Source: Gemmatimonas groenlandica
Lineage (GTDB): Bacteria > Gemmatimonadota > Gemmatimonadetes > Gemmatimonadales > Gemmatimonadaceae
NCBI RefSeq assembly: GCF_013004105.1
Contig: NZ_CP053085.1
Coordinates: 558,001 to 622,000 of the forward strand
Reading direction: 5' to 3'
DNA: 64,000 nt
The notes under the pieces were generated by a model that saw only the letters and a program-made list of their open reading frames with translations, searched no databases and had not been told where the DNA came from. Of the stretch, positions 24,467-46,466 are shown piece after piece. The position numbers and the translations under genes were made by a program. Each line of letters begins with the position of its first letter. Position 1 is the stretch's first letter.

Positions 24467-26862
24467 GTGGGGCGCTCCATCTCGGAATCGATCACCATCG
24501 CATCACTCACTTCGGGCAGGGGAGAACGCAGCGCCAACGCGAGCACTTCATCCATCGTGCGCACGGGATGCCACGTCACTTCGTTCCGGACATCTTCGGG
24601 CAGCTCCGCCAGATCCTTGGCGTTGCCCTGCGGCACGATCACATGCGAGATGTGATGACGGTGCGCAGCCACGCCCTTTTCACGTACGCCGCCAATAGGC
24701 AACACACGGCCCCGCAACGTGATCTCGCCCGTCATCGCCACGTCTCCACGCACGGGGATGCCCGTGAGTGCGCTGGTGAGTGCGGTGGCCAGCGCGATAC
24801 CGGCCGACGGTCCGTCTTTCGGGGTCGCGCCGGCAGGCAAATGCACGTGAATATCGCGCGTGCGATGGAAGTCGGCTGGCAGCCCCATCGCATGCGCACG
24901 CGAGCGCACGTAGCTGAGCGCGGCGGCCGCTGATTCCTTGATCACATCCCCGAGCGTACCGGTGAGTTGCAAGCGTCCGCGTCCGGGCACGACACTCACT
25001 TCGATCTCGAGCAATTCGCCACCCACATGCGTGTAGGCGAGTCCCGACGCCACACCCACCTGATCGCGGAGGCCGCTCTCTTGTTCATCGTGCGGGGCTG
25101 GGCCCAGCATCGACGGCAGTTCGTCCTTGGTGATGACAACCTTCGCCTCCGGCGCGAGGGACCGGCGCGCGAGCTTTCGCGACAAGCGCGCGATGCGACG
25201 GTCGAGATCGCGTACACCGGCTTCACGCGTCCATCCACGGATCAGCGCCGAAAGCACGTTCGGTTCGAGCGTGACCTGTTCCGGCGGAATGCCATGCGCC
25301 GCCAACTGGCGCGGCAACAGGAAGCGACGGGCGATCGTGATCTTTTCCGGCTCGAGGTAGCCCGGCAACCGGATGATCTCCATGCGATCGCGCAGCGCCT
25401 CGGGAATCGACGCCAGCGAGTTGGCCGTCGTCAGGAACAGCACCTGCGACAGATCGTAGTCGACTTCGAGGAAATGATCGTTGAACGCGTGATGCTGTTC
25501 TGGATCGAGGACCTCGAGCAGCGCGGCCGCCGGATCACCGCGCCAGTCGCTGCCGAGCTTGTCGACTTCGTCGAGCAGAATAACCGGGTTGATCGTTTCC
25601 GCGCGCCGCATCGCCTGAATGATACGACCGGGCAGGGCGCCGATGTACGTGCGTCGGTGACCGCGAATTTCCGCTTCGTCGCGTACACCGCCGAGCGCCA
25701 TACGCACGAACTTGCGGCCGAGCGCATGCGCGATGGATTTGCCGAGTGATGTCTTGCCGACGCCGGGCGGACCGACCAGGCAGAGAATAGGGCCGGGCAG
25801 GTGACCGACGCGGCCAAGCACCGCGATGTAATCGAGGATGCGTTCCTTCACTTCCTCGAGGCCGTAATGATCGGCTTCGAGCACCGAGCGCGCGTGATCG
25901 AGATCGATGGTGTCGTCGGAGCGTGCGGTCCACGGCAGATTGAGCGCCCAGTCGAGCCAACCACGGGTCACCGTGGCATCGGGCGACATGGGCGAGCTGC
26001 GCTTGAGCTTTCGCAGTTCACGATGCGCCCGCGTGGCCACGGCCAGCGGCAATCCGCGCTCGACGACCTGCGTGGAGAGGTCCTCGAACTCATCGCCGTC
26101 TTCCTGCCCGAGTTCCTTGTGAATCGCGCGCAGCTGCTCCTGCAGGTAGAACTCGCGCTGATTCTGAAAGAGCGATCCGCGCACCTGTTCATCGAGCTTC
26201 TTCTCGAGCTTGAGTAGCTCGAGTTCGCTGCCAAGCACCGTGACGAGCTGGGACGCCAGCTCGGCCAGCGTGGGCGCCTCGAGCAGGCGCTGCCGCTGTT
26301 CGATGGGCACCTGCAAATGGGCGGCGATGCCGAAGGCAATGCGCTGTTCATCGTCGAGCGCCTGCAGCAGCCCGACGACCTCGGGAGGCAGACGCCGCTG
26401 GAGGCTGGCGTACTCCTCGAACATGGTGAGCGCGTGCCGCAGCGTGGCGTGCGCCTGGTCGCGCGGAACCGATTTCGCGCTGATCGGGCGTAACGGCAAC
26501 GGCGTGACGCGCGCCTCGAGCAAGGCACTGCTGCGCGAGGACGTGTAGCGCTGCACGCTCACCCGAGAGACCGCTTCTACCAGAATCTTGGTGGTACCGC
26601 CAGCGAGCCGCGTGACCTGCTGCAAGCGCGCGAGCACGCCCACGCGGTGCAAGTCGGACGAGCCGGGCGCCTGCACGTCGGCGTCACGCTGCGTGACAAG
26701 CAGCAGCTCTTGCGTGCCGTCGGTCGCCGCGCTGACGGCGGCCAGCGATCCCTCGCGTCCGATCAGGAGGGGCATGGCGACGTGGGGGAACAACACTACG
26801 TCGCGAAGTGGAAGGACCGGCAGCCGTAGGCTGCCGGTCCTTGAAGTGCGGTTCGTGCTCAG
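24463..26862 (-). CDS. lon: ATP-dependent protease Lon, probably CTG-initiated
   Basis: An AAA+ serine protease degrading misfolded and regulatory proteins in the cytosol. The N-domain begins [23 protein letters not shown], which is split here only by numbering; then come the coiled region, Walker A ([13 protein letters not shown]), Walker B (ILLDEVDK), and the protease domain with the serine in [10 protein letters not shown] and the lysine in GVREKGVAA. The conserved PVLPLRD segment is encoded upstream of the first ATG/GTG/TTG (GTG 26796). The frame is open only to an in-frame stop at 26881-26883. CTG 26862, whose last two bases are the first two of the clpX TGA, gives about 13 residues before PVLPLRD, as in E. 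coli Lon, for a total of 799 residues. Confidence 0.93.
26812..26842 (-). other. 14-bp hairpin at the clpX-lon junction, inside the predicted lon 5' coding region
   Basis: aaggaccggcagcc at 26812-26825 pairs perfectly with ggctgccggtcctt at 26829-26842 around a 3-base loop. It looks like a terminator stem without a T-run. If lon starts at CTG 26862, the stem lies within its first codons and could slow or attenuate lon expression relative to clpX. If lon instead starts at GTG 26796, the hairpin lies in a clpX-lon spacer. Confidence 0.65.
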
Positions 26863-28121
26863 GCTTCCTTCTTCTGCCGCTTAGGCGCGATTTCGAGGAG
26901 CGGTGGACCGCCGTGCAAGACGGAGGCTTCCGTGACGCGAACTTCGACCACGTCATCCCGGGTGGGAAGGTCGAACATCGTGTCCTGTAGGGTTTCTTCA
27001 AGAATGGCGCGCAGACCGCGCGCACCAGTGCCACGACGCAGCGCCTTGCTGGCGACGGCGCGAAGGGCAGACTCTTCGAAGGTGATCTTCACGTCCTCGA
27101 GTCCGAAGAGACGCTGGTACTGCTTCGTGAGCGCGTTCTTCGGTTCCTTGAGGATCTGGACGAGCGAATCTTCGTCGAGCGCTTCGAGGGGCACGCACAC
27201 CGGCAAGCGGCCCACGAGTTCGGGGATGATACCGAAGCGGAGCAGATCATCGGGCTCGACTTCCGCGAACGGGGTCTTCGGGGTGGTCTGCTTGATCGAG
27301 ACCACCTTGCCGTCGCCCTTCTTGGTGTCGAAGCCAAGCTGGCGGCGTCCGGTGCGGGCCTCGATGATCTTCTCGAGACCGTCGAACGCGCCACCGCAAA
27401 TGAACAGGATATCCTTGGTGTTGATCTGGATGTATTCCTGCTGCGGATGCTTGCGGCCACCCTGCGGCGGAACGCTGGCGACGGTGCCTTCGAGAATCTT
27501 GAGGAGCGCCTGCTGCACGCCCTCGCCCGACACGTCACGCGTGATGCTGGGGTTTTCCGACTTGCGCGCGATCTTGTCGATTTCGTCGATGTAGACGATG
27601 CCGCGCTCGCACTCGGCGACGTTGAAGTCGCCGGCCTGCAGCAGCCGCACCAGAATGTTCTCGACGTCCTCACCGACGTAGCCCGCTTCCGTGAGGGTCG
27701 TGGCGTCGGCGATCGTGAACGGCACATCGAGGATGCGGGCAAGCGTCTGCGCGAGCAGCGTCTTGCCGGTGCCGGTCGGACCGATAAGCAGGATGTTCGA
27801 CTTGTCGAGCTCGACGTCGTCCTCACGGGCGTTGCCGGCCGCGTTGATGCGCTTGTAGTGGTTGTACACCGCTACGGCGAGCGCCTTCTTCGCGTTCTCC
27901 TGCCCGATCACGTACTGATCGAGGATGTTCTTGATCTCCCGGGGCGTCGGCACCTGGGTGATTGCTTCGGCCACTTCCCGTTCCTCGTCCTCGGCCAGGA
28001 TCTCATTGCAGAGTGCGATGCACTCGTTGCAGATGTAGACCGACGGGCCCGAAATGAACTTTCGGACGGCGTCCTTGGACTTGCCGCAGAATGAGCAGCG
28101 GAGATGCTTGTCGTGGGACAT
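26859..28121 (-). CDS. clpX: ATP-dependent Clp protease ATP-binding subunit ClpX
   Basis: An AAA+ unfoldase that feeds tagged proteins to ClpP. The N-terminal zinc-binding domain has two CxxC pairs (CSFC and CNEC). [15 protein letters not shown] is Walker A, and [12 protein letters not shown] is Walker B. The IGF-type ClpP loop appears as FGIIPEL-adjacent sequence with LGF in RRQLGFDT. The length of 420 residues is normal. Unusually, clpP is not adjacent: it lies 2.5 kb upstream, beyond two plus-strand genes. The stop overlaps the proposed CTG start of lon. Confidence 0.97.
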
Positions 28122-28434: not shown

Positions 28435-29169
28435 ATGTGGCCGTTCAAATGGTTCCTGTTCGTGCACGTCACCACCGGCGCCGTCGGGCTGGTGCTGTTC
28501 TGGATCCCCGTGTTCGGCAAGAAAGGGGGGCAGAACCACAAAAAATTCGGCGCGGTATACGCTTACCTGATGTTCGTGACGGCGACCATGGCGCTCGGCA
28601 TGGGGACGAACACCATCCTGGCCCCAGTGGCCACTCATAGTCACCTCACCGATTGGCCTCCCGCCCGCATTCAGGGGATCTTCGGCTGGATGATGCTGTA
28701 TCTGGCGATCCTGACGATCAGCTTGGTCTGGCACGGACTGGTCACGGTGCGCAACAAGAAGCAGCACCTGGAGAATCGCCGGTGGCCCAACGTGGGACTC
28801 AATCTGCTGGTGATCGCCGCCGCGCTCCTCTGTGCGTACCGCGGCTGGCTGATCAATGAAGTGCTAATGATGGGCATCGCCGTGGTGGGGGTGGCCTCGG
28901 GCCTCACCAACCTGTGGTTCATCTACACGCCGACCCCCTCACGCATCGCGTACCAGCTCGAGCACGTGAAGGCGATCGTGGGCTCGGGGATCTCCGTGTA
29001 CACCGCCTTCATGGCCTTCGGGTTCGTACGCCTGATGCCGCACAATGCGCTCAATCCGAAGATGTGGTCGATTCCGTTGGTGGTCGGTCTGGCCATCATC
29101 ATCTACCACCAGATGCGCATTCGACTTGCACAGCGCCGGCCGGCGCGGATGACCACTCAGGGTGCCTGA
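28435..29169 (+). CDS. Polytopic membrane protein, DUF2306-like
   Basis: About seven hydrophobic segments over 244 residues begin with WFLFVHVTTGAVGLVLFW. Histidines sit near membrane faces (FVHV at 10, HKKFG near 36, HSHL near 68, HGL near 98), a pattern seen in DUF2306-type proteins, whose function is unknown. It overlaps the P450 gene by 8 bp and is surely co-translated. A heme- or electron-related role for the partner is only inference from that pairing. The basic C-terminus (RIRLAQRRPARM) is probably cytoplasmic. Confidence 0.75.
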   Translation: MWPFKWFLFVHVTTGAVGLVLFWIPVFGKKGGQNHKKFGAVYAYLMFVTATMALGMGTNTILAPVATHSHLTDWPPARIQGIFGWMMLYLAILTISLVWHGLVTVRNKKQHLENRRWPNVGLNLLVIAAALLCAYRGWLINEVLMMGIAVVGVASGLTNLWFIYTPTPSRIAYQLEHVKAIVGSGISVYTAFMAFGFVRLMPHNALNPKMWSIPLVVGLAIIIYHQMRIRLAQRRPARMTTQGA

Positions 29170-30541
29170 CGCGACGCTGTCCCCGCTGTATCGTCCGCCG
29201 GCGCCGGTACCTCGCGCGCCCGTGACGTCGCTTCTGCGGCTGCTGTGGCGCCGACAGAAGGATTTACTCAGCCTGCTCCCCGATCTCGCCTACCGCGAGA
29301 TGGTCACGCCACTGGGCTCGTCGCGCCGCGGCATCCTGCTGATCAACGACCCGGTGTGGGTGAGCAAGATTCTCACCGATCACGATCTCTTTCCGAAGAA
29401 CGATCTGTTCGTGGAAGCGCTCGAGGATCTGGTGGGCAATTCCATGTTCGTCACCAGCGGCGACACGTGGCGACGGCAGCGGAAAATGGTCGATCCGGCG
29501 TTCTCGCACATGCGGATCAACCGCGCCTTCGATTTCATGGCGGCCGCGGTGCACGACTTCGAGACGCGCCTGCGCGCCCTCTCGGCCTCGGGCGACACGT
29601 TCTCGCTCGACGCCGCGATGAGCCATCTCACCGCCGATGTGATCACGCGAACGATCTTCTCGGTACCGCTCGAGGGTGAGGCGTCGCAGCAGGTCTTCGA
29701 CGACTTCATGCGCTTCGAGCGGCAGGTCGGCAGCATCGACATCAAACGGTTGCTGCTCGACAAGCCGTGGTCGCCGACGACGCAGCCGCAGCCGGTGCGC
29801 GACGCCTGCGCGCGCATCCGCCAGCATCTCGGCACGATGCTCGACACGCGCATGGCAACCGAGGGACTCGACGACATCGCCGGTGCCGTACTCGACGCCC
29901 GCGACACCGACACCGGCCAGCCGTTCACACGCGAGGAGCTGATCGATCAGCTGGGCGTGTTCTTCCTGGCCGGACACGAAACCACGGCCAGCTCGCTCAC
30001 GTGGGCGTTCTACATCCTGTCCGTACGCCCCGACGTGGTGGCGCGGATGCGTGAGGAAGTAGAGCGCGTGGTGGGCGACGGGCCGGTGTTGTTGGAGCAC
30101 ACCAAGCGGTTGCCGTACGTGCGCAATTTCTTCCGCGAAGTGCTGCGGTTGTATCCACCGATCACGTTCCTGCCGCGCGTGGCGGCGCGGGACACTGAGA
30201 TCGCCGGCCGTCGCGTGAAGCGCGGCACGATGTTGATGATCGCGCCGTGGAGCATGCACCGACATCAGAAGATGTGGGTGAACCCCGATCGCTTCGATCC
30301 GGACCGGTTCCTGCCCGAGCGCGAACACGAGATGACGCCGGGCGCCTACATCCCCTTTGGCGCGGGGCCACGCATCTGCGTCGGTGCCGCCTTCGCCACG
30401 ATCGAGACGGCGTTGATCCTGGCGACGCTCGTGCGCGGCTTCGATTTCACGACGCTCGATGCGGAGAGCGTGCGGCCATTTGCGCGGCTCACGACTAGGC
30501 CGGCGGTGGAGATAGAGATGCGCGTGGCAGAAGTTCGGTAG
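29162..30541 (+). CDS. Cytochrome P450
   Basis: A heme-thiolate monooxygenase of 459 residues, GTG-initiated at 29162. The I-helix oxygen motif AGHETT is at 270-275, the ExxR is EVLR at 326-329, and the heme loop FGAGPRICVG places the cysteine ligand at 406. HRHQKMWVNPDRFDPDRF is the meander region. It has no fused reductase and no N-terminal anchor. No ferredoxin gene is nearby. It is most like the bacterial CYP110/CYP102-related fatty-acid or terpenoid hydroxylases, though the substrate is unknown. The carotenoid operon 2 kb away is a possible but unproven link. Confidence 0.92.
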   Translation: MPDATLSPLYRPPAPVPRAPVTSLLRLLWRRQKDLLSLLPDLAYREMVTPLGSSRRGILLINDPVWVSKILTDHDLFPKNDLFVEALEDLVGNSMFVTSGDTWRRQRKMVDPAFSHMRINRAFDFMAAAVHDFETRLRALSASGDTFSLDAAMSHLTADVITRTIFSVPLEGEASQQVFDDFMRFERQVGSIDIKRLLLDKPWSPTTQPQPVRDACARIRQHLGTMLDTRMATEGLDDIAGAVLDARDTDTGQPFTREELIDQLGVFFLAGHETTASSLTWAFYILSVRPDVVARMREEVERVVGDGPVLLEHTKRLPYVRNFFREVLRLYPPITFLPRVAARDTEIAGRRVKRGTMLMIAPWSMHRHQKMWVNPDRFDPDRFLPEREHEMTPGAYIPFGAGPRICVGAAFATIETALILATLVRGFDFTTLDAESVRPFARLTTRPAVEIEMRVAEVR

Positions 30542-30553
30542 CGGGAAAAATGA

Positions 30554-30665
30554 AAACTCCCTAGTGAGCAGGGGGGAGGGTTTCAGGAGGCAGGAAGCAG
30601 GTGAACCGCACGCGGTTCCTGCACCCTCCTTCCTGATACCCTCCCCCCTGCTCACTAGGGAGTTT
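30554..30665. repeat. 112-bp inverted repeat with 28-bp perfect outer arms
   Basis: The outer arms at 30554-30581 and 30638-30665 are exact complements: aaactccctagtgagcaggg continuing through ggagggt, and its mirror. The inner parts also pair imperfectly, ending in gaacc and ggttc, so the whole can fold into one long stem. It fills the gap between the convergent P450 and clpP genes. A bidirectional terminator or a MITE-like non-autonomous element both fit. No protein fits. Confidence 0.8.
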
Positions 30666-30683: not shown

Positions 30684-31298
30684 TTACTTCGCTACCGCCA
30701 CCAACTCCGCCTGATGCTGAATCACGTTGTCGACGAGGCCATACACCTTGGCGTCTTCGGCGCTCATGAAACGGTCACGATCGGTATCGCGCTCGACCTG
30801 CTCCACCGGCTTGCCGGAGTGCTTGGCCATCAGCTCGTTCATTTTCGAGCGGAGATACAGAATCTCGCGCGCCTGAATTTCGATATCCGACGCCGAACCA
30901 CCACCGCCATTCTGCGACGGCTGGTGGATCATGATGCGCGAGTGCGGCAACGCGCTGCGATGGCCGGCGGCGCCGGCGCAGAGCAGGAAGGCGCCCATGC
31001 TGGCGGCCATGCCCATGCACGTGGTGTGCACCGGCGCCTTGATGAACTGCATGGTGTCGTACATCGCCAGGCCGGCTGACACGCTGCCGCCCGGCGAGTT
31101 GATGTACAGATGGATCGGCTTCTCGGGGTTATCGGCCTCGAGGAACAGCATCTGCGCGATGATGATGTTCGCGACGTCGTCGTTGATCGGCGACCCCAGG
31201 AACACGATGCGGTCCATCAACAGACGCGAGAAGATGTCATACGTGCGCTCGCCACGGCTTGAGCGCTCGATGATGTACGGCATGTAAATCGATGCCAT
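30684..31298 (-). CDS. clpP: ATP-dependent Clp protease proteolytic subunit
   Basis: A serine peptidase that forms the double-ring chamber used by ClpX. The triad is visible: S100 in [10 protein letters not shown]125 in MIHQPS, and an aspartate in [10 protein letters not shown] (probably D171). The length of 204 residues is normal, with no long propeptide. A glycine-rich NGGGGSASD loop precedes the handle helix. It follows tig by 56 bp, as in the classical tig-clpP-clpX order, but clpX is displaced. Confidence 0.97.
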
Positions 31299-31354: not shown

Positions 31355-32599
31355 TTACGCCGTCGTGACCGGATTCTTCTCGAGCAGCCAGCCGAAGACG
31401 CGGTCTTCGGTGAGCTCACGCTCGATCTCCTGCAAACGACCCGACTTCTGCAGCTGCGCGTACACCTGGCCAGGATCCACGTTCCGGGCCTTCGCGAGCT
31501 CCTCGATGCGGGCATCCACGGCCGATGCGCTCGCGGTGAGCGACTCACGTTCGGCGATCGTGTCGATGATCAGATCGCGACGGACCTGACGCTCGGCCAT
31601 CGGAATGAATTCCTGCGTGAAGCGCTGCTTCTCGGCCTCGGGCACGCCGTACATCTGCATGTAGCCGTCGACCAGCTGCATCACCCACGCCTTCGGCACG
31701 TCGAACGGATTGGCCTCGACGATCTGGTCGATGATCTGTCCACGCACTTCCGCATCGGCCTCGCGCTTCGAGTGCTCGCCCATGTCGGTGCGCACGGCGT
31801 CGCGCAGGATCTGCACCGTATCGAAGTCGCCGAGCTCACGCGCGAACGCGTCATCGAGCGCCGGAAGCGACTTGCGCTTCACATCGGTGAGCACGACGCG
31901 CACAAGCTTCGTGCTGCCACGCTGCGATTCGTCGGGGAAGTCTTCGGGCCAACGCACCTGACGCTCGGTGGTGCCGCCGGGGGCGGTTTCCATGATGAGC
32001 TCTTCGATGCCGGCGATCGCCTGTCCGCCGCCGAGCACGAGACGATACTCCTTGCCTTCAGGCAGGGAGCCATCAGCATCGGCCGTCGAGAGCATCACCG
32101 TGACCATGTCACCGGGGGCCGGCTTGTCTTCGACCGGCGCCCAATCCGCCTTCTGCTCGCGAATCTTCTCGATCTGCTCTTCGATCAGGTCGTCGGTCAC
32201 GATCGAGTCGCGACGGGTGACCGTGAAGCCTTCGAGTTTCTCGAGCGCGAGTTCAGGGCGCACTTCGCAGTGCAGTTCGAACTCGAGCGGCTGGCCGGGT
32301 TCAGCCTTGAGATCATGCACATGCGGCTGCGCGGCGAGCTTGAGCCCTTCGCGTTCGACGGCTTCACGGAAGGCGTCGTTCATCGCGAGCTCAATCGCTT
32401 CCTGCCGGACTTCAGCAGCGTAGCGCTTGCGCACCATCGCGGCCGGAGCCTTGCCGGGGCGGAAGCCGGGGATGCGGGCTTGCGTCGCGTACTTGCGCGC
32501 CGCCTTTTCTTCGTAGGACGCGACGGTGTCAGCCGGCACCGAAATCTGCATCCGGCGCGAGACTCCCGCGCTCTCGGTCGGGGTAATGGTGATGGTCAT
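31355..32599 (-). CDS. tig: Trigger factor
   Basis: A ribosome-bound chaperone and peptidyl-prolyl isomerase. The N-domain carries the ribosome-docking GFRPGKAP signature (reading [14 protein letters not shown]). The FKBP-like middle domain spans about 150-245, and a helical C-terminal domain reaches residue 414. It heads the tig-clpP unit. The start overlaps nothing, and about 130 bp separate it from the end of crtI, with a terminator between. Confidence 0.96.
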
Positions 32600-32731: not shown

Positions 32732-34243
32732 TCAGCGCAGCGACAGCTCAGGGGCCGGAGCTAAGGCGCGGGCGGGCGCCCCGCCGATGAGCTCCGCGAC
32801 GATCTTGCCGCTGGAGATCACGCCGGGAATTCCTGCGCCAGGATGGGTACCGGCGCCGCAAAAATATAGGTTCGGGATGTCCTGGCTCACGTTGTGCGGC
32901 CGCATGTAGGCTGACTGCGTAAGCACCGGTTCGGGGCCGAAGGCACTGCCCAGATAGCTGTTCAGGTTCGTCTCGAAGTACCGCGGGTCGATCCGGCGTT
33001 CGCTCACGATGTGTTTGCTGAGCTCAGGCATATAGCGCTCTTCGAGATATCCCATGATGCGGTCGCGGTAGCGATCGCCCACGGCGGCCCAGTCGACGTC
33101 ACCGCCCAGGTGCGGCACCGGCGAGAGCACGTACCAGCAGTCGTGTCCTGGCGGCGCCAGCGATGGATCCGTGGCGGTGGGGCGGTGCAGGTACAACGAG
33201 AAATCGTCGGCCAGGATCTTCTTCTCGAAAATGTCCTCGAGCAGCGCCTTGTAGCGCGGGCCCATGATGATCTCATGGTGCGCGATGTCTTCGTACTTCC
33301 GGTCTGTGCCGAAGTAGATCACGAACAACGACATGGAGAAGCGCATGCGCTCGACCTTGGCATTGCTCATCGATGGGCGTACCTCGGGCGGCAGCAGCGT
33401 GCGATAGGCTTGTGCCACATCACCGTTGCAGACCACGGCATCCGCCTTGAACACTTCGCCGCTGACCAGCTTTACGCCGGTGGTGCGCTTACGCGCCGCG
33501 TCGACGGTGATCTCCTTGACTTCGCTTTCGAAGCGGATCGTGCCACCGAGATCTTCGAAGGCCTGCACCAAGGCGCGCACCAGCGCGCCGGTGCCCCCCA
33601 TCGCGAACAGCACGCCCCACTGCTGCTCCAACTTGTGGATCAGCGCGTACATCGACGACGTCTTGTACGGGTTGCCACCCACGAGCAGCGGATGAAAGGA
33701 GAACACCTGACGCAGGCGCTCGTCCTTGAGATACTTGTCGGCGAGGGCAGCCACCGAAATATCGGAACGGGTGCGGATCAGGTCGGGCAGCATCTTGATC
33801 ATCGAGCCCGCCGTCAGGAACGGCTTGTCGATGAGCGGCATGCCGACGTTGAAAATTTCCCACGCCTTTTCACGGAACTTCAGATAACCGGCGACGTCGT
33901 CGGGGTTGAATTCACCGACCTGACGGACGATCGCATCACGGTCGCCGTTGTAGTGGAAGACCGAGCCGTCCTCGAACCGGATGTTATAAAACGGATCGAG
34001 CAGGACGAGCTTGATGTAGTCTTCGGTTTTCCGGCCGGTCAGCGCGAACAGCTCGTCGATGAGCCACGGCGCGGTGATGATCGTCGGGCCGGCATCGAAC
34101 GTGAAGCCATCCTGTTCGAAGACGTATCCGCGGCCGCCGGCCTTGTCGAGCTTCTCGACAATCGTGACGTCGTGGCCCTGTGCCTGCAGGCGAATGGCTG
34201 CGGCGAGTCCGCCGAAGCCGCTGCCGATGACAACAATGCGCAT
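32732..34243 (-). CDS. crtI: Phytoene desaturase
   Basis: An FAD-dependent desaturase converting phytoene to more conjugated products, up to lycopene. The dinucleotide motif VVIGSGFGGLAAAIRLQAQGH opens the protein (positions 4-24). GGRGYVFEQDGFTFDAGPTII near 36-56 and HPLLVGGNPYKTSSMYALI near 185 are CrtI hallmarks. The C-terminal FAD motif is LYFCGAGTHPGAGIPGV near 470. The length of 503 residues is normal. It is the last gene of crtB-cruF-orf-crtI. Confidence 0.95.
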   Translation of the reverse strand: MRIVVIGSGFGGLAAAIRLQAQGHDVTIVEKLDKAGGRGYVFEQDGFTFDAGPTIITAPWLIDELFALTGRKTEDYIKLVLLDPFYNIRFEDGSVFHYNGDRDAIVRQVGEFNPDDVAGYLKFREKAWEIFNVGMPLIDKPFLTAGSMIKMLPDLIRTRSDISVAALADKYLKDERLRQVFSFHPLLVGGNPYKTSSMYALIHKLEQQWGVLFAMGGTGALVRALVQAFEDLGGTIRFESEVKEITVDAARKRTTGVKLVSGEVFKADAVVCNGDVAQAYRTLLPPEVRPSMSNAKVERMRFSMSLFVIYFGTDRKYEDIAHHEIIMGPRYKALLEDIFEKKILADDFSLYLHRPTATDPSLAPPGHDCWYVLSPVPHLGGDVDWAAVGDRYRDRIMGYLEERYMPELSKHIVSERRIDPRYFETNLNSYLGSAFGPEPVLTQSAYMRPHNVSQDIPNLYFCGAGTHPGAGIPGVISSGKIVAELIGGAPARALAPAPELSLR

Positions 34244-34290
34244 GAACGGAGGTGCTGAAGAAAGCGGGGAGCGCCGCTCCGCCGCGACGT

Positions 34291-34593
34291 TCAGCGACGA
34301 AGGAGCACAGTAATGTGCCAGAGATGGATCACGAGCGCCGCCAGCATCGCCAACGCAAATCCCTCTGGAGACGGTTCCGGGCGGCGATGAAAGATCATTG
34401 CCGCGACCAGCGACCCGCCGGCCCCGAGAAACGAGACGATGCGCGCGGTGTTCGGCGAGCCCAACGGTGATGACGGATTTCGACGCTGCCAGACGTACAG
34501 CACCGCCGCCTCGATCACGATGAGGACGAGAATGCCGATGGGCAGCGCGTCAGAATCGAAGATCGGGATGAGTCGGTCCATCACACCATTCAT
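34291..34593 (-). CDS. Small three-segment membrane protein in the carotenoid operon
   Basis: It has 100 residues with hydrophobic segments at about 19-35, 52-67 and 80-97 and a short basic loop (WQRRNPSSP). It lies between cruF and crtI in the same orientation, with gaps of 47 and 58 bp. No family is recognised. An accessory or assembly role for membrane carotenoid enzymes is possible, though it could also be a passenger. ATG 34593 is used; an internal ATG (34581) is an alternative. Confidence 0.6.
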   Translation of the reverse strand: MNGVMDRLIPIFDSDALPIGILVLIVIEAAVLYVWQRRNPSSPLGSPNTARIVSFLGAGGSLVAAMIFHRRPEPSPEGFALAMLAALVIHLWHITVLLRR

Positions 34594-34651
34594 GAGGCTA
34601 ACGCACTGGCCGGTACGGCGGTGCCCACTCGCCGGTCGTCCCTACCCGCCA

Positions 34652-35617
34652 TCAGCGGCCCGAGACCGCGACGCGACCGACCGGCGCCGTCCCGGTGATG
34701 CCGAGGGGCTGCGGGTCGTTGCGGAGCGCGGCCCACAGGGGAATCGCCATGGCGATCGTGCCAAGCACACCCGCCAGCACCATGTCCTGACGGAAGCAGA
34801 TGGCCAACGGCAAGAGCCCGTTCAAGGCGTACAGCGTGATCGGCAAGCGATGCGGCGAGACCTTGGACACCCACGTCGTGGGCGGCACGATGGCGAGCAT
34901 GACGCGCGCCACGATGATGCCGGTGAACAGCCAGCCGAGCCAGTTCGTGATCGGCATGCCAAAGAAAATGGGCTTGCCAATGAACTGCTCGAAGGCGGAG
35001 CGGTCGGCAAGGGAGCCCATCTGCCAGAACCAATGGTTGGTTTTCACCATCGCGGGGTCCATGGAGACGTCCCACGCCGTGAGCACGAGTCCGCCCATGA
35101 GCGCCCAGTACCATTTAGACGTGCTATCGTCCTTCGCGGGCAGAAAGCGTCCGCAGATCGCCAACGAGGCGACCAGCATGTAGAACCACGACGTCGGGAT
35201 GTTGAAGGGCACTCGGCCAAACATCTTGTAGCCCAGCTGGCTCGTGTACTCGTACGCGCCAAACGGATAGTCGGTGACGGTGCCGGCATATTCCGAGATG
35301 AACGCCAGGCAGAACGACACGAGGAACACGAGCAGCGCCCGCCGGCTGCCGATGCAGTGCGCGAGGAACGCGAGGCCGGCGATGGCACCGAGGGTGACCG
35401 TGGTGGCACCGCCATAGGCGAAGCCCACGGCCATCACCTTCTGGTTCTGCGCGGTCTGCAGCCACTCGGGATACGGCGGCACGAGGAACGTGGCGAACGC
35501 GAACGCGGAAAACGCACTGAAGAACGCGTGCCCGAGCAAGGTGAGACCGGCAATCTTGAGCAGCGTGGACGGTGAGCTGTCCCGCAGGGTATCCCGAAGG
35601 TCGGTAGAAGCGGTCAT
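34652..35617 (-). CDS. cruF: CruF-type carotenoid 1',2'-hydratase (DUF422)
   Basis: An integral membrane enzyme that adds water to the terminal double bond of acyclic carotenoids, giving 1-hydroxy ends. Seven to eight hydrophobic segments are seen. The DUF422 signatures are EYAGTVTDYPFGAYEYT, VPFNIPTSWFYML and AWDVSMDPAMVKTNHWFW. The length of 321 residues is normal. It lies 12 bp after crtB, with a gagg ribosome site. The presence of this gene argues for lycopene-derived, uncyclised carotenoids such as oscillol types. No glycosyltransferase for them is present here. Confidence 0.85.
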   Translation of the reverse strand: MTASTDLRDTLRDSSPSTLLKIAGLTLLGHAFFSAFSAFAFATFLVPPYPEWLQTAQNQKVMAVGFAYGGATTVTLGAIAGLAFLAHCIGSRRALLVFLVSFCLAFISEYAGTVTDYPFGAYEYTSQLGYKMFGRVPFNIPTSWFYMLVASLAICGRFLPAKDDSTSKWYWALMGGLVLTAWDVSMDPAMVKTNHWFWQMGSLADRSAFEQFIGKPIFFGMPITNWLGWLFTGIIVARVMLAIVPPTTWVSKVSPHRLPITLYALNGLLPLAICFRQDMVLAGVLGTIAMAIPLWAALRNDPQPLGITGTAPVGRVAVSGR

Positions 35618-35629
35618 ACGAGGAGCTCC

Positions 35630-36613
35630 TCAGGCCAGGCGGATCAGGGAGTCGGCGTTGGAAGCCACGGCATTGGGTTCCCACACGATCCGGGGACCGT
35701 GACCCAACGCGGAGAGATCAGGCGCCGGCGCGCGATATCGCCAGGCATTCCAGAGGATCCCGACGCGCGCTAGACGACCAATGCGCGCGCGGGTCGAAAT
35801 GGTGTCATAGTTTTGCGCTTCGATGGCCGTGAGAATCCCAGCATAGCCATTGGCGCAGGCCGCTGCGCACCGCTGGGCGTCGCCATCGAGCAACGCGATG
35901 CCCGGCATAGCAGCCACGTACAAGGCGCGGGCCCGACTGACTTCGTACGCCATCAGCGGCGCCCAGCCGGGATGGCGCGCGAGTTCCGGGCCTCGCGACA
36001 GCACGTCCTGCGGTGTCAGACCGAACCGCGCCATGTCGTCGGCCGGCAGGTAGCAACGGCCGCGCTGCGCGTCTTCCCCGACATCCCGCAGGATATTGGT
36101 GAGCTGCATGGCCGTGCCGAGCGTTCGGGCATACTGAATCGCCTGGGTGAGCATCGTCGGGCCCGCGGGGACGCCGAACACGTACGTGCACATCTCGCCG
36201 ACGGAGCTGGCGACTCCCTCGCAGTACTGCTCGAGCTCAGGCCAGGTGGCGTAGGTATGCGCCTCGAGGTCTCGGCGCACGCCGTCGAGCAATTCGAACA
36301 GCGGGGCGGGTGACACCTCATACTCACGGGCCACCCAAGCGACTTCCCGGAACACCGGTCCGCTCGGTCGTCCGTCGAGGGCAGCCTGCAGCTCGTTCCG
36401 GTAGGCGTCGAGCTGGAGGGCCAGTTCGGACACGTTATCGTGGTCGGCCTGATCGACGAGGTCGTCGGCGATCCGGCAGAACGCGTAGAGCGCGTAGGCC
36501 GCACGACGCTTCGACGCCGGGAGCAGTTTGCTCGCCAGCGAGAAAGTACGCGCGTGGACCATCGTGATCCGGGCGCATTCGGACGCGTCGTCCAGAGACG
36601 CGTTCACGATCAT
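35630..36613 (-). CDS. crtB: Phytoene synthase
   Basis: Condenses two geranylgeranyl diphosphates to phytoene, the first carotenoid step. The first aspartate motif is FCRIADDLVDQ (about 46-56) and the second is LRDVGEDAQRGRCYLP (about 175-190). YARTLGTAMQLTNIL is also typical. ATG 36613 (MIVNASLDD) with aggg just upstream gives 327 residues. The 83 upstream codons in frame are unlike the family. It heads the carotenoid operon. Confidence 0.94.
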   Translation of the reverse strand: MIVNASLDDASECARITMVHARTFSLASKLLPASKRRAAYALYAFCRIADDLVDQADHDNVSELALQLDAYRNELQAALDGRPSGPVFREVAWVAREYEVSPAPLFELLDGVRRDLEAHTYATWPELEQYCEGVASSVGEMCTYVFGVPAGPTMLTQAIQYARTLGTAMQLTNILRDVGEDAQRGRCYLPADDMARFGLTPQDVLSRGPELARHPGWAPLMAYEVSRARALYVAAMPGIALLDGDAQRCAAACANGYAGILTAIEAQNYDTISTRARIGRLARVGILWNAWRYRAPAPDLSALGHGPRIVWEPNAVASNADSLIRLA

Positions 36614-36852
36614 GCTACCCTGGGCAGCATCGGCTGCGTTGAAGGACTCATGCCGGGACGGAAACTCATCAAAACGGTGGTCAGGCGGGATGACTTCAGC
36701 CGCGGTTCGGACAACGGGAGCAATGAACGAGCAGAACGTCCTCGCCTGCTGAACGCAGAAAACGACGAGAGGTTCCTGCGCGCTCCGCGATAATACGAAA
36801 GTTTTTGTACCGATGGGTCTACACAAGGTAAAGTGCGATCGATTCACGGGAC

Positions 36853-36894
36853 TGTCAACCATTCTTTACAGCCAGAGTGTCAAGGATTCTTGAC
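36853..36894 (-). promoter_or_regulatory. Two 17-bp direct repeats with TTGACA boxes upstream of crtB
   Basis: tgtcaaccattctttac (36853-36869) and tgtcaaggattcttgac (36878-36894) match at 14 of 17 positions with a 25-bp period. On the minus strand each ends in TTGACA, a perfect -35 hexamer. The second copy is also a palindrome (gtcaag, gatt, cttgac). They lie 240 bp ahead of crtB in the non-coding region 36614-36974, whose only other features are the susD terminator and an unassigned AT-richer stretch. Paired operators or tandem promoters for the carotenoid operon are plausible. Confidence 0.4.
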
Positions 36895-36974: not shown

Positions 36975-38231
36975 TTACTTGCCGGCCATGTTCGGGTTGT
37001 TGTCACGCTCGGCGCGCGGCAGCGGGTAGCACGTCTGCGAACCCGTGTTGCCGTACCCCGGCTTGAAGTACGGCTGACCGGTGGCCGTCACCGTCGTGCC
37101 AACGGAGGCCGCCGAGCGACGGAAGTCTGCGAGCCGCTTGCCTTCGAGGTAGAACTCGAGGGCGCGCTGGTTGAACAGTTCCGTCTTGACGCTCGCCGCA
37201 TCGGTCGCGCCAGCATACGCCGTCTGGCCGTTGGCCGTACGGCGTGCGTCGATGAGCGCGAGCTGTGTCGTCGTGTTAGCCGAGGCCTCGGCGGCGATAT
37301 AATCCGCTTCGAGCTTCGAGGCGAGGCGAATGTTCGACGCATACCCCGTGAACTTCGCCTGCTGGTAGAACCCGCCCGGCACGGCGTCTTGACCGACGGC
37401 CGTGCCCGAACCCGGCGCCCGGAACGGCACGCGCGGATCTGTCTGGCGGTACCACGGCGCGACACTGATGGCGCCGCGATCGAAGCTGAACTGATACAGG
37501 CGGTTCGACAGGCGCGTACGGCTGTTGGCATCGTCCGTGTAGCGCATGTTGTATTCGAATCCAGCCGGCACGAGCGCCGCGTCGGCGGCGGCGCCGGCGT
37601 TGTCGCCCTTCTGCAGCTTCGCACGCGCACGGCCGACCAACGCCGCGTTCGACAGCGCAATGCCGTCGGCCGTGGCGTTGGCCTTACCTACGTCATAGCC
37701 ACGCGTGAACCAGAACGCCGCCGAGTCGAGCAGTTGCGCGGTGGTGAGCTCCGGACCGGACGACAGCGACCCGGTGCAGAAATCGGTCGCCATCATCAGG
37801 ATCGAAAAGCCGCGGAAGGTCGCGGCACGCGCGAGACTGATGTTGGTGGTGGGGGTCGGCAACGTGAGGTCGAGGACCGTCTTGGCCGAAGCCGTGGCCA
37901 ACGAGACAGGCGCCCACACGTCCGTGTTCAGCGAGCCGTTCAGGTCGGAGACGGTGCGGAAACCGAACTCGTTACGCGTCGGGAAGGTATCCGACACGTT
38001 CACTTCGTTCGTGAAGTATCCGCTGTACATCGCGAGCCAGCCGAGCGCGGTGGCGAAGTTCTGCTGCGCGGATAGGGCGAGCGTCGCGGCGCCCGATGCG
38101 GGATCGACGGTCGCCGCGTCGATGACGTTCGGATTGGTGACGGTGAGAAACTGGTCGGAGCAGGCGACAGCGCCAAGCATCAGCGCCGAGCCGACTACCG
38201 TGCGCGAAACCGCGCGTGGGATCTTTTTCAT
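36975..38231 (-). CDS. SusD/RagB-like nutrient-binding outer-membrane lipoprotein
   Basis: A surface lipoprotein that caps a SusC-type TonB-dependent channel. The N-terminus is a signal with a cysteine at AVAC and then SDQFLTVTNPN. The body is α-helical TPR-like, and ends with the SusD-type LFNQRALEFYLEGKRLADFRR and YPLPRAERDNNPNM. The 418 residues are slightly short for SusD, as in many non-Bacteroidetes members. ATG 38231 is chosen over TTG 38237. It lies 13 bp after susC. The substrate is unknown. Confidence 0.88.
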   Translation of the reverse strand: MKKIPRAVSRTVVGSALMLGAVACSDQFLTVTNPNVIDAATVDPASGAATLALSAQQNFATALGWLAMYSGYFTNEVNVSDTFPTRNEFGFRTVSDLNGSLNTDVWAPVSLATASAKTVLDLTLPTPTTNISLARAATFRGFSILMMATDFCTGSLSSGPELTTAQLLDSAAFWFTRGYDVGKANATADGIALSNAALVGRARAKLQKGDNAGAAADAALVPAGFEYNMRYTDDANSRTRLSNRLYQFSFDRGAISVAPWYRQTDPRVPFRAPGSGTAVGQDAVPGGFYQQAKFTGYASNIRLASKLEADYIAAEASANTTTQLALIDARRTANGQTAYAGATDAASVKTELFNQRALEFYLEGKRLADFRRSAASVGTTVTATGQPYFKPGYGNTGSQTCYPLPRAERDNNPNMAGK

Positions 38232-38244
38232 GAGCAAGTCGCGG

Positions 38245-41200
38245 TTAGAAGGTGAGGTTGAACCGCAGAACGGTATTCCGCGGATTCGGCGTCGTCAGGA
38301 AGTCCTGGCGCGAGAACGCGTTGGTCTGCGAGTTGATCTCGGGGTCAGCCCCGGAGTAGTCACTCCAGAGCTTCACGTTCTGCACGGCGAACGTGAGCGA
38401 CGCGCTTTGCACGCGGTTGCCAATGCGCTTCATCAGCGTCGACGGCAGCGTGTAGGTGGCGGACACTTCGCGGAGGCGGATGAAATCGCCCTTCTCGAGG
38501 TAAGAGTCGATCACGTCGTTCACGGTAGCGTTGTTGCCCTTGTTGGTCACGAACGCCGGCTGGCCGGAGGTTGGATTGCCGAATCGACGCAGGCGCTCCT
38601 CAGGGGACAACGCCGTCGGATCAAGACGCAGGTTGGAACGAACCAGCTGCGTTTCACGGAAGAACGCCGTGAAGTTCTGCACGAGGAAGTCACGCTTCGC
38701 GTCGAGCAGTGCTGACACCCGCAGGTTCTTGAACAGCGTGACCGTGTTGGTGAGGTTCCACTCCAACGTCGGGAACAGGTTACCCATCGGGGCCAGCGTA
38801 TCGCTGACAATGACTTTGCCAGTGGCCAGGTCAACCGATTCGATCTTCTTGGACACGAACACACCAAGCTGCTGGCCGACAATCGTCCGGCCTGCGCCGC
38901 CTAGGTTGAACGGGAGCACCTTATCGGCGCCGTCGCCGAGGCTGGTCAACTCGTTGTGAAGTGTGTTGGCACCCGCGCGGATGTCCCAGCGCACGTTCTG
39001 CGTGTTGAGTGCGCTGATATTCAGGGCGAGCTCAAGTCCACTGTTCTCCACCGCGCCGATGTTCGCCAGCGGGTTCGAGGAAAAACCGAGCGACGGCGGA
39101 ATCGGACGCGCGATGATCAGGTCCTTCGTCTGTTTCTTGAAGTACGTGAGCTCGGCCGACACGCGGTTGTCGAAGAACCCGGCGTCTAGACCGGCTTCGA
39201 ACTCGCTGCCACGCTCCGGCTTGAGGTCGGCATTACCGGGGTTGCCCGGAATGGCACCCGCGCTCGTGGAGCCCGAGATGTTGAACGACGCGGCGGACAG
39301 CGTGGTGAGCGCGTCGCCCGGGTTGGGCGAGCGGCCCGTCGTGCCGTACGCAGCGCGCAGACGCATGGTGTTGAAGATGCCCGAAAGCGGCTCGAAGAAG
39401 CTTTCTTCGGAGATCGCCCAGCTACCACCGATCTTGGGCAGTACGAATGCCGGTGCCGTTGTACCGAAGGACGAGTTCTTGTCGACGCGGACACCGACCT
39501 GCACGAAGCGCTTGTTCTGGTTGCCGATCTGCAGCTGCGAGAGGTAGCCGAACTGACGCTGTTCGGTGAAGCCGCCGCCACCGGTGGTGGTCGCCGCTGA
39601 CCCAACAGAGTTGTTCGCATTGGTCACGAAGCCGATACCGTTGGCCGTGAGCAGCGTGTTGCGCGTGGAGATTACCTGAAGGCCGAACGACAAGTTGGTT
39701 TCCCAATCTGCGCCGAGCTGCTTCCTCATGTTACCGAGGTAGTCGAACGTGTAGCGTTCGGCGCCACGTGCCGTCGAGGCGTTGCTGCCGCCGTCGGTCA
39801 GACCGCCATACCAGAGGCTGTCGTTCTTCGGGAAGAAGCTGCGCTGGTTGTCAGACGCGTAGTCCATGCCACCAGTGACGCGGTTCGTGAACCACGTGGT
39901 CGGCGCGTAGTTGGCCGTGATCGACGTGGTCACGCGCTTGGTGAGCAGACTGCGCTCGATCGCGTTGATCGCGTTGTAGTGGCGGTTGCTATACCAGCCG
40001 TCCTGCGTAAGCTGCCCCGTCGGCGAGTCATTACGCGTCAGGGGGCTGCCCAGGAGACCGCCGCCCAACCAGCCGAAGATGTTGTTGTCGTTGTCGGGCA
40101 GGTCGATCTTGCTCTGGACCAGCCCCAGTCCGACGTCGAAGTTGAGCTTCGAGTTCGCGACGTAGTTGACGTTCGTGCGTACGTTGTAACGATTGTACTT
40201 GTTGTTCGGCAACGTGCCTTCGGAGTTGTCCGAACCGTACGACAAGTTGAATCCGTAATTCTGGCCACCGCCACGCGCGCTGTAGTTGAACACGCGTGCG
40301 CTACCCTTCTGGAAGCCACCGACGCGGGCCAGCGGGTTGTCGTTGACCAGATCGCCAACGGTCTTGCCGCGGCAGAGCGGGTTGGTGCTGGTGGGCAGAA
40401 TCAGGGCGGCCGTACACGCGCCGTAGTTGTCGGGCGGCGTGTAGCGCGCATCCGATGAGCCGGTCTCCAGGCGAAGCGTTTGCTGGAAGCTGTTGGAGCC
40501 TGCCCGACCCTTCTTGGTGATGATCTGGATCACGCCGGCGGACGCATCGGCGCCGTACAGCGTCGCGGCGGCCGGACCCTTCACCACCTCGATGCTCTCG
40601 ATCTCTTCCGGGTTCAGATCGTTCATGCGGTCAAACTGCTGACCGGACTGCCCCGAGCCGATCTGGCCCTCGTTGATACGAACGCCGTCGATGAACAGCA
40701 GCGGCTGGTTCGACAGGTTGATCGATGACGCACCGCGGATGCGGATCTGCGTGGCCGTTCCCTTGGTTCCGGACTGCGAGCTCAGGGCAACGCCCGGCAC
40801 GCGGGACTGCAGGAGGTTCGCCACGCTGGTGATGGGCGCATCCTTGATGATATCGGCGGCCGAGACGGAGGCGACGACAGCAGCCTGCGCCTTACGCTGC
40901 TGGTTACCGACAGTACCCGTCACGACAACTTCGGACAGGTTGATGACCGATTGGGTCATCTTGACATTCAGGCTGGCGGTCTGGCCGGCCACGACCGTCA
41001 CGCTATCGCGCGATGCTTTGTAGCCAAGGCGGAATACGGAGATTCCCGTCCGACCAGGCTTCACGTTCGTGAGACGGTACTCGCCGTCCTTACTTGTCTG
41101 TGTCTCGAAGCTCGTGCCCGCAACGACGACGCGGGCGTCGGCTATAGGTTGCGCGGTGGCGGCATCAGTCACCCTGCCGCTGATCGTTCCGGTCTGTGCC

Positions 41201-41280
41201 AACAGGGCACGCGACGGGAGGGCGACCAGCAGAACGGCGGCGATGACCGCCAAGCGACCAATAATCGCTCGGTGAAACAT
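38245..41280 (-). CDS. SusC/RagA-like TonB-dependent outer-membrane transporter
   Basis: A 1011-residue outer-membrane channel energised by TonB. A signal peptide (to about 30, ending LLAQ) is followed by a carboxypeptidase-regulatory-like domain (TGTISGRVTDAATAQPIADARV), a plug with LLQSRVPGVALSSQSG and RIRGASSINLSNQPLLFIDGV, and a β-barrel ending in an aromatic residue (VLRFNLTF). ATG 41280 is chosen because AAGGAG lies 6-7 bases upstream; the 47 upstream codons are not signal-like. The susD gene follows directly. Nearby amine-oxidase, epimerase and peptidase genes suggest peptide or amino-acid ligands, by inference. Confidence 0.93.
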   Translation of the reverse strand: MFHRAIIGRLAVIAAVLLVALPSRALLAQTGTISGRVTDAATAQPIADARVVVAGTSFETQTSKDGEYRLTNVKPGRTGISVFRLGYKASRDSVTVVAGQTASLNVKMTQSVINLSEVVVTGTVGNQQRKAQAAVVASVSAADIIKDAPITSVANLLQSRVPGVALSSQSGTKGTATQIRIRGASSINLSNQPLLFIDGVRINEGQIGSGQSGQQFDRMNDLNPEEIESIEVVKGPAAATLYGADASAGVIQIITKKGRAGSNSFQQTLRLETGSSDARYTPPDNYGACTAALILPTSTNPLCRGKTVGDLVNDNPLARVGGFQKGSARVFNYSARGGGQNYGFNLSYGSDNSEGTLPNNKYNRYNVRTNVNYVANSKLNFDVGLGLVQSKIDLPDNDNNIFGWLGGGLLGSPLTRNDSPTGQLTQDGWYSNRHYNAINAIERSLLTKRVTTSITANYAPTTWFTNRVTGGMDYASDNQRSFFPKNDSLWYGGLTDGGSNASTARGAERYTFDYLGNMRKQLGADWETNLSFGLQVISTRNTLLTANGIGFVTNANNSVGSAATTTGGGGFTEQRQFGYLSQLQIGNQNKRFVQVGVRVDKNSSFGTTAPAFVLPKIGGSWAISEESFFEPLSGIFNTMRLRAAYGTTGRSPNPGDALTTLSAASFNISGSTSAGAIPGNPGNADLKPERGSEFEAGLDAGFFDNRVSAELTYFKKQTKDLIIARPIPPSLGFSSNPLANIGAVENSGLELALNISALNTQNVRWDIRAGANTLHNELTSLGDGADKVLPFNLGGAGRTIVGQQLGVFVSKKIESVDLATGKVIVSDTLAPMGNLFPTLEWNLTNTVTLFKNLRVSALLDAKRDFLVQNFTAFFRETQLVRSNLRLDPTALSPEERLRRFGNPTSGQPAFVTNKGNNATVNDVIDSYLEKGDFIRLREVSATYTLPSTLMKRIGNRVQSASLTFAVQNVKLWSDYSGADPEINSQTNAFSRQDFLTTPNPRNTVLRFNLTF

Positions 41281-41476
41281 CAAGTCTCCTTCCAAAATTA
41301 GGGATGGGCTGACGCGGGAACCTGCGCCAATGTCACTTTGCGGTAACGTGACGCGGTGAATCTCTCTCAGCTTTGAGGGATTTGCCACCCCGGCGGGGAC
41401 GAATACTGCATTTTGTCTCATTTACTGTGCGTTTGGACCCACAGTCTTAAGTTTAGTCCACGTATTTAGGGACGAG

Positions 41477-45188: not shown

Positions 45189-45216
45189 CGCGGTGGATTC
45201 AACCCGTCAGTGCAAC
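45189..45216 (+). repeat. Left terminal inverted repeat of the IS30 element
   Basis: These 28 bases (cgcggtggattcaacccgtc, then agtgcaac) are the exact reverse complement of 46381-46408. The transposase stop codon lies within it at 45199-45201. Confidence 0.85.
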
Positions 45217-46350
45217 AGCATGCGCTAAAACTACCGCGGGTGTTTGAAAGTCGAGTGTTTTGCGTGGCCGTGTGTTGAGTCGGCGCGCAATCTGGTCGAG
45301 CTCGCGCTGCGTGACGCCGCGAAGGTCGGTGCCTTTGGGGAAGTACTGGCGCAGCAGGCCATTCGTGTTTTCGTTCGACCCGCGCTGCCACGGACTGCGG
45401 GGATCGCAGAAGTACACGGCGACGTTCGTCGCCACTGAAAAGCGCCGATGCTGTTGCATTTCATGACCGCGATCCCAGGTCAGGGTCGTCATCAGCTGCC
45501 CCGGGACGCGGGCGACCTCGCGAATGAGCGCGTCGACGACGTCCTGCGTCGCTTTGCTCGGTACCTGCACGAGATGGACATAGCGCGAGTGCCGCTCGAC
45601 CAAGGTGGCGATGACGCTTTGGCCGAGGCCCATCAGCAGATCGCCTTCCCAATGGCCCGGTAACGCGCGATCCTCGATCGCCGCGGGGCGCTCGCTGATC
45701 GCCACGGCGTCTTTGATCTGCCCCCGGGCATCCCCCGCCGTGGTCTTCGCGCCGCGATGGGCCCGCACGCACCGCAAATGGGCCACGAGTTCCTTTTTCA
45801 GGACGCCGCGGGCTTGGACAAACAAGGAGCGATAAATCGTCTCGTGCGACACGTGGAATGCGTTCTCCGTCGGATACGTCCGGCGCAGCCAGCCCGTGAT
45901 TTGCGCGGGGGACCACTGCGCCGCCAGCTTCGCGGCGACGAGGCGCCGCAGCGGGCCGTGCGTGGCGAGGCGACACGGTTGCGGCCGCGCCGCGCGCTGC
46001 CACGCGGCGGCCTCCGCCGCCACCGCCCGATAGCGCGACGGCCCCCCGTTCCGGGCAATCTCGCGTGTGACCGTCGATGGCGCGCGGTTGAGCGCACGGG
46101 CCAGCGCGCGGGCGCTCTGCCCATCAGCCAGCCCACGCGAGATGACTTCGCGCTCGTCGGGCGTCAACGCGGTCGTGGCCCGGTGCGGCACCGCCGGGGT
46201 GTAGCCCCCGTGGGCGCGAATAGCATTCTGCACCGTGCCCGGATGGCGCCCTAACCCGTCTGCGATCCGGGCCATCGTGGTCCCCGCTTTGAACTGCGCC
46301 CACAGGGTCCGTTGTTCAGTGGGGGTCAGTCGATACCGCCGCGTCGCCAT
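45199..46350 (-). CDS. IS30-family transposase
   Basis: The 383 residues appear complete. N-terminal helix-turn-helix segments (TPTEQRTLWAQFKAGTTMARIADGLG; RALARALNRAPSTVTREIARNG) recognise the ends. The catalytic DDE core has D in GHWEGDLLMG, D in TLTWDRGHEM and E in SNENTNGLLRQYFPKGTDL, the IS30 signature. RLNTRPRKTLDFQTP is the usual C-terminal segment. ATG 46350 fits the family start (MATRRYRLTP). No frameshift or stop interrupts it, so the element could be active. Confidence 0.93.
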   Translation of the reverse strand: MATRRYRLTPTEQRTLWAQFKAGTTMARIADGLGRHPGTVQNAIRAHGGYTPAVPHRATTALTPDEREVISRGLADGQSARALARALNRAPSTVTREIARNGGPSRYRAVAAEAAAWQRAARPQPCRLATHGPLRRLVAAKLAAQWSPAQITGWLRRTYPTENAFHVSHETIYRSLFVQARGVLKKELVAHLRCVRAHRGAKTTAGDARGQIKDAVAISERPAAIEDRALPGHWEGDLLMGLGQSVIATLVERHSRYVHLVQVPSKATQDVVDALIREVARVPGQLMTTLTWDRGHEMQQHRRFSVATNVAVYFCDPRSPWQRGSNENTNGLLRQYFPKGTDLRGVTQRELDQIARRLNTRPRKTLDFQTPAVVLAHAVALTG

Positions 46351-46380
46351 GCAAGCCTCCCGAGAGTGAACACGTAAAGT

Positions 46381-46408
46381 GTTGCACTGACGGGTTGAAT
46401 CCACCGCG
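46381..46408 (-). repeat. Right terminal inverted repeat of the IS30 element
   Basis: It starts gttgcactgacgggttgaat and is the exact complement of the left end. It lies 58 bp from the 3' end of tRNA-Leu. Confidence 0.85.
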
Positions 46409-46466
46409 TCAATCCGCGGTTCAGCTGTTCCGAAACCAGGGCACCGAATTCCCACCTGAACTTACA

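Follow-up and report, generated by a model that had tools for sequence, protein, structure and literature searches.

In the window studied here (a stretch of 64,000 nucleotides from Gemmatimonas groenlandica), a membrane protein gene (hereafter MP) and a cytochrome P450 gene lie side by side between clpP and clpX (Table 1). Comparison with other genomes identifies this pair as a conserved two-component carotenoid synthesis module linked to aerobic phototrophy rather than a chance insertion. We consider it probable, at roughly 0.7, that the P450 and MP form a dedicated carotenoid-tailoring oxidase that attacks an acyclic carotenoid at a methyl group and most likely yields one or both of the oxidised groups of gemmatoxanthin. 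This reading is based on the conserved adjacency of the two genes, their co-divergence, their association with genes for carotenoid synthesis (crt) and photosynthesis, and consistency with the carotenoids reported for three species. The carotenoid genes and the photosynthesis context point to the likely substrate; a carotenoid as the class of substrate has good genomic support, and the particular substrate, the carbon position, the role of MP and a ligase step discussed below are inferred. The pair is a concrete candidate, and the best one, for the gemmatoxanthin oxidation step lacking an assigned gene, and it reveals a module inside the photosynthesis clusters of several bacterial orders.

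Table 1. Features of the window around the MP/P450 pair (positions within the window)
Feature	Position	Strand	Remark
MP, 244-aa membrane protein	28435..29169	+	ORF, ATG start; DUF2306-like
Cytochrome P450, 459 aa	29162..30541	+	ORF, GTG start; PF00067
Hairpin, 112 nt, between convergent P450 and clpP 3' ends	30554..30665		dispersed-repeat copy
clpX	26859..28121	-	flank of insertion
clpP	30684..31298	-	flank of insertion
tig, trigger factor	31355..32599	-	flank
crtI-family phytoene desaturase	32732..34243	-	TIGR02734, 614.7 bits
orf100, small predicted membrane protein	34291..34593	-	carotenoid cluster member in several pair-bearing genomes
cruF-like carotenoid hydratase	34652..35617	-	PF04240
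crtB-like phytoene synthase	35630..36862	-	PF00494

The reading frames of MP and the P450 share 8 bp on the plus strand, and the clpP / MP-P450 / clpX arrangement is flanked by tig and lon-engB. An earlier note on this DNA had described such an overlapping pair on the strand opposite clpP and clpX and had proposed that it splits these two genes. Both points hold. The overlap and the strands are seen in the open reading frames of the window, and the split is a true insertion, since clpP and clpX are contiguous in all ten pair-less Gemmatimonadaceae with a readable junction (G043, G050, G058, G059, G060, G074, G014, G090, G139 and G149). The 112-bp inverted repeat reported on one side of the pair is also present, beside clpP, as a hairpin with a folding energy of -100.5 kcal/mol (z -11.35). 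However, a search of this genome for its 24-nt core, allowing up to 3 mismatches, gave 11 matches spread over 8 places; at 3 of these the core forms inverted pairs separated by about 82 bp, a REP-like pattern, and a reversed control pattern had no match. The hairpin is therefore a dispersed repeat, and it is not supported as part of the two-component system. It is probably incidental to the pair and may serve as a transcription terminator. The ten contiguous junctions and the repeat next to the pair could also be taken as traces of a recent random insertion via the hairpin, unrelated to the neighbourhood. We give this almost no credence and have rejected it: seven of the eight repeat places are away from the pair, and synteny contradicts it, since members of the genus share the pair at the clpP-clpX junction and in other genomes it adjoins crt genes.

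Next to tig lies a carotenoid cluster of the order crtI-orf-cruF-crtB (32732-36862), which the earlier note did not mention. The orf of this cluster, orf100, encodes 100 aa and is without a family match; it recurs in 14 of the 25 gemmatimonad pair loci and is also present in the pair-less G060, and none was seen at the locus of the presumed G. aurantiaca genome. Genes for a SusD-like protein and a TonB-dependent receptor (36975-41421) adjoin crtB and recur in pair-less relatives. Farther along the window, a transposase-like gene with HTH_38 and rve domains (45199-46455) is presumably of the IS30 type.

MP relatives (E 1e-5) were found in 31 of 179 Gemmatimonadaceae genomes, and a close P450 relative adjoins MP in all 31, as judged by coordinates (some of the P450s are cut by contig ends, and in G136 the pair is split across two contigs). 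An MP alignment scan of 84,980 species genomes gave 295 relatives. The best 80 loci were kept; going by their record titles and synteny, 25 are from gemmatimonads and 55 from Proteobacteria. The P450 is adjacent to MP in 76 of the 80 (45 divergent, 10 convergent and 21 co-directional). The earlier note had made its proposal depend on conservation of the two genes as neighbours, and these counts bear it out: conserved adjacency gives good support to a two-component oxidation system that works as one functional unit. The translational overlap, which had been put forward as key evidence for the partnership, does not carry this weight, because orientation and spacing vary among lineages. Most genus members have a gap in place of the 8-bp overlap, and the genes are divergent or convergent in other lineages.

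The genomic surroundings of the pair differ within and outside the genus. Within it, the pair interrupts clpP-clpX. Outside it, the pair adjoins cruF and/or crtI, without tig-clpP-clpX, in all eight carriers examined (the nine known, apart from G145), with crtI in addition to cruF in four of the eight; in five (G093, G094, G109, G110 and G154) the two genes are convergent or nearly so, not co-directional. A neighbourhood with crt genes is conserved in several lineages. One locus of the scan, L122, has the Gemmatimonas order clpX-MP-P450-clpP-tig-crtI under a record titled Candidatus Kuenenia stuttgartiensis, and this title is probably wrong.

In the family, MP and puf occur together in 26 genomes, MP only in 5, puf only in 18 and neither in 130 (n=179); the corresponding numbers for the genus are 20, 2, 3 and 5 (n=30). 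Fisher p values of 7e-15 for the family and 0.007 for the genus only describe these tables, as related genomes are not independent and kinship is uncorrected. In the five genus genomes with neither, the clpP-clpX junction is intact, and the three with puf only are uninformative (the P450 lies at a contig edge in G052, the contig ends at clpX in G068, and clpX was not found in G045). The 18 family genomes with puf but no MP count against a carotenoid oxidase, as do the five with the pair but no puf: G054 (93% complete), G093, G094, G154 and G051 (79% complete). The strong puf link, together with bch, puf or acsF genes at many proteobacterial loci (see below), would also fit a P450 that acts on another photosynthetic component, such as a side chain of bacteriochlorophyll or quinone, the carotenoid linkage being secondary. 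This appears unlikely to us, because the pair keeps with cruF and/or crtI in G093, G094, G154 and G054, where no puf was found. A carotenoid remains our preferred target.

The proteobacterial loci extend the same association. Among the 55, many of them on short contigs, so that all counts are lower bounds, crtI/crtD is present in at least 44, bch/puf/acsF in at least 31, crtD directly behind MP in at least 28, and a gene for an ATP-grasp protein in at least 38. Ca. Phycosocius bacilliformis has the gene order crtE, crtB, ATP-grasp, P450, MP, crtD, crtI, bchO, with 4-bp overlaps between ATP-grasp and P450 and between MP and crtD. The search for the reaction centre family Photo_RC (PF00124) covered the proteobacterial carriers at the 55 loci other than L156, L151, L166, L179, L184 and L186, and 45 of these 49 genomes gave a match. 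Of the four without a match, L164 carries bchX on the very contig of its locus, which indicates that this genome is incomplete. Photo_RC occurs in 20 of 289 sampled Alphaproteobacteria (a class sample around Ca. Phycosocius), a yardstick and not a matched control, as the carriers include Gammaproteobacteria. Against this background, reaction-centre genes are enriched among the carriers. MP was found in three of the 289, all with Photo_RC and one of them the seed genome. Most phototrophs therefore manage without MP, and this low number counts against the carotenoid oxidase reading. Spread of the pair by plasmids was considered and rejected: MP had no match in the plasmid collection, and from the pair's DNA only short P450 pieces matched.

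The two proteins have also diverged together. The pairwise identities of the P450s and those of the MPs have a correlation of 0.89 when all pairs are taken and of 0.92 within Proteobacteria; for the 30 loci with a full crtI the P450-MP correlation is 0.95, the correlations with crtI are 0.86 and 0.85, and the partial correlation given crtI is 0.82. The trees made for P450 and MP are quick trees. Four of the 80 loci (L142, L153, L157 and L159) have MP without an adjacent P450, the P450s of these genomes being of 29-34% identity or missing, and this again counts against the oxidase. In L157 the solitary MP is situated between crtI and bchO. Such a locus may suggest that MP has a separate function as a carotenoid enzyme or carrier, while the P450 uses ordinary ferredoxins and the two are mere pathway neighbours. 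We regard this as a possible but less probable explanation, since the genes are adjacent in nearly all loci, in three orientations, and their distances track each other beyond what crtI accounts for. The MP relatives of L142, L153 and L159 belong to phototroph genomes, lie outside crt and photosynthesis clusters, and form their own clade in the quick MP tree.

The earlier identification of the second gene as a P450 is confirmed by a PF00067 match at 1.9e-78, with 264.8 bits against a gathering cut-off of 22.8. Its motifs are intact (I-helix AGHETT, EVLR and FGAGPRICVG). The heme-Cys motif FGxGxRxCxG is present in all 70 P450 family rows (4 paralogue rows are counted apart), and the I-helix pattern AG-x-E/D-T in 69, the exception being L135. 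Per genome, there are 2 P450 matches in G000, 5 matching segments in the presumed G. phototrophica AP64 genome (G044), and none in G149 or the presumed G. aurantiaca T-27 genome (G043). The P450 of the pair is a candidate carotenoid-oxidising enzyme.

The label 'DUF2306-like' fits MP only loosely. In its favour, PF10067 is matched at E <= 1 by 45 of 76 aligned relatives, the best of them at 2.1e-5. The MP of the window is itself unmatched at this threshold and fails the gathering score, and no Pfam or NCBIfam family matches it at E <= 0.001. An AlphaFold2 model (mean pLDDT 89.6) has seven long helices. With this model, the best Foldseek hit had E 0.21 (none reached E <= 0.001), and VIA-align found helical bundles of middling similarity only; a profile search of the PDB gave no relative at E <= 1. 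The comparison with the b561-type Dcytb 5zle (Z 6.8, rmsd 4.1, 150 aligned) is tied with unrelated helical bundles, and that with 4o6y gave TM 0.34 and E 1.2. Histidines 11, 35, 68 and 177 are invariant across the 76 aligned rows, which is compatible with, though not proof of, a heme or metal role. The positive loops suggest an N-terminus outside and a C-terminus inside; this would place His 35 and 177 close to the inner side of the membrane, the side expected to receive a soluble P450.

Published carotenoid data agree with the oxidase reading in three species. In phototrophic Gemmatimonas, the antenna complexes contain gemmatoxanthin as their main carotenoid (PMC8342508); it is reported from those of G. 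phototrophica and G. groenlandica (PMC12817894). Its pathway requires oxidation of the C-19' methyl and of the C-16 methyl; the 2021 structure paper gives no gene for C-19 oxidation and tentatively proposes cruH-like candidates for the carboxyl, a proposal that counts against a role of the pair in this step (PMC8342508). A 2023 review gives the genes for rhodopinal as unknown (PMC10604819). The term 'P450' is absent from the cluster and strain papers PMC3679898, PMC3176799, PMC10008586, PMC12817894 and PMC10715153, and searches of the openly accessible literature yielded nothing relevant on carotenoic acids in aerobic phototrophs or on Gemmatimonas with P450. Both strains reported with gemmatoxanthin (G. 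groenlandica and the presumed G. phototrophica genome) have the pair, and the presumed G. aurantiaca genome is without it. Another possible task is hydroxylation at C-2 or elsewhere, for example to make the 2,2'-hydroxyls of oscillol rhamnosides instead of the gemmatoxanthin groups. The pair-bearing G. phototrophica is reported to contain oscillol dirhamnosides, and G. groenlandica, which also has the pair, to contain them as a putative minor pigment (PMC8342508); the crt linkage would suit this task too. However, G. aurantiaca is itself a reported oscillol rhamnoside maker (PMC8342508), and its presumed genome (T-27) lacks the pair as well as any other P450. A 2-hydroxylase was therefore rejected as the main reading and seems very unlikely.

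Under the favoured reading of a methyl oxidase, CrtB, CrtI and CruF would supply the acyclic carotenoid, and MP would hold the soluble P450 at the membrane and either donate electrons to it or present the lipophilic carotenoid. The P450 would then oxidise a methyl group, most likely to the gemmatoxanthin C-16 carboxyl in Gemmatimonas and possibly also to the C-19' formyl. In many aerobic phototrophic Proteobacteria, the ATP-grasp ligase of the same module would conjugate the carotenoid acid. Cultures of Halieaceae, which are relatives of some carriers, were reported with spirilloxanthin only, from UV/Vis absorption peaks (PMC3679898), which would fit a non-conjugated change but not a cross-conjugated aldehyde. 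A non-conjugated C-16 acid would be expected to keep a spirilloxanthin-like spectrum, whereas a cross-conjugated 19'-aldehyde would not. Because of these spectra and the ATP-grasp partner, we infer that the acid is the more probable common activity. The ATP-grasp protein (PRK06849-like at L150, 7307-8461) has no PDB relative at E <= 0.01. It is absent from G000, G043 and G044, and a search of 18 family genomes found it in two, G109 and G090. More tentatively, and at well under even odds, P450, MP and ATP-grasp may constitute an unrecognised carotenoid branch in which MP is a new membrane redox or substrate partner and the carotenoid acid is amidated in Proteobacteria and left free in Gemmatimonas. 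If true, the branch would be common to aerobic phototrophs of Proteobacteria and Gemmatimonadota; carotenoid amides, formed by the ligase from acid and amine, would have been mistaken for spirilloxanthin in routine UV/Vis work; and Gemmatimonas, having no ligase, would leave the free acid, gemmatoxanthin.

Several known systems show partial parallels. By sequence, the closest solved-structure relatives of the P450 are 7wzl and then the plant carotenoid hydroxylase CYP97A3/LUT5, with CYP97C1 lower; the plant enzymes are likewise P450s acting on C40 carotenoids. CYP97A3/LUT5 and CYP97C1 hydroxylate carotenoid rings, whereas the carotenoids of the present pair would be acyclic, and we know of no DUF2306-like partner for them. 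CYP175A1 of Thermus and CYP287A1 of Deinococcus, which act on beta-rings, are also bacterial carotenoid-pathway P450s, the likeness drawn here being one of role. The weak profile similarity of the MP family leads to Pfam DUF2306, whose description is only that of a predicted membrane protein. The ketolases CrtA and CruO of purple bacteria similarly perform oxidative tailoring of phototrophs' acyclic carotenoids, but CrtA is not a P450 and CruO is a CrtI-family enzyme (PMC10604819). Finally, the gemmatoxanthin pathway itself operates in strains that carry the pair, although its published carboxyl candidates are cruH-like genes (PMC8342508).
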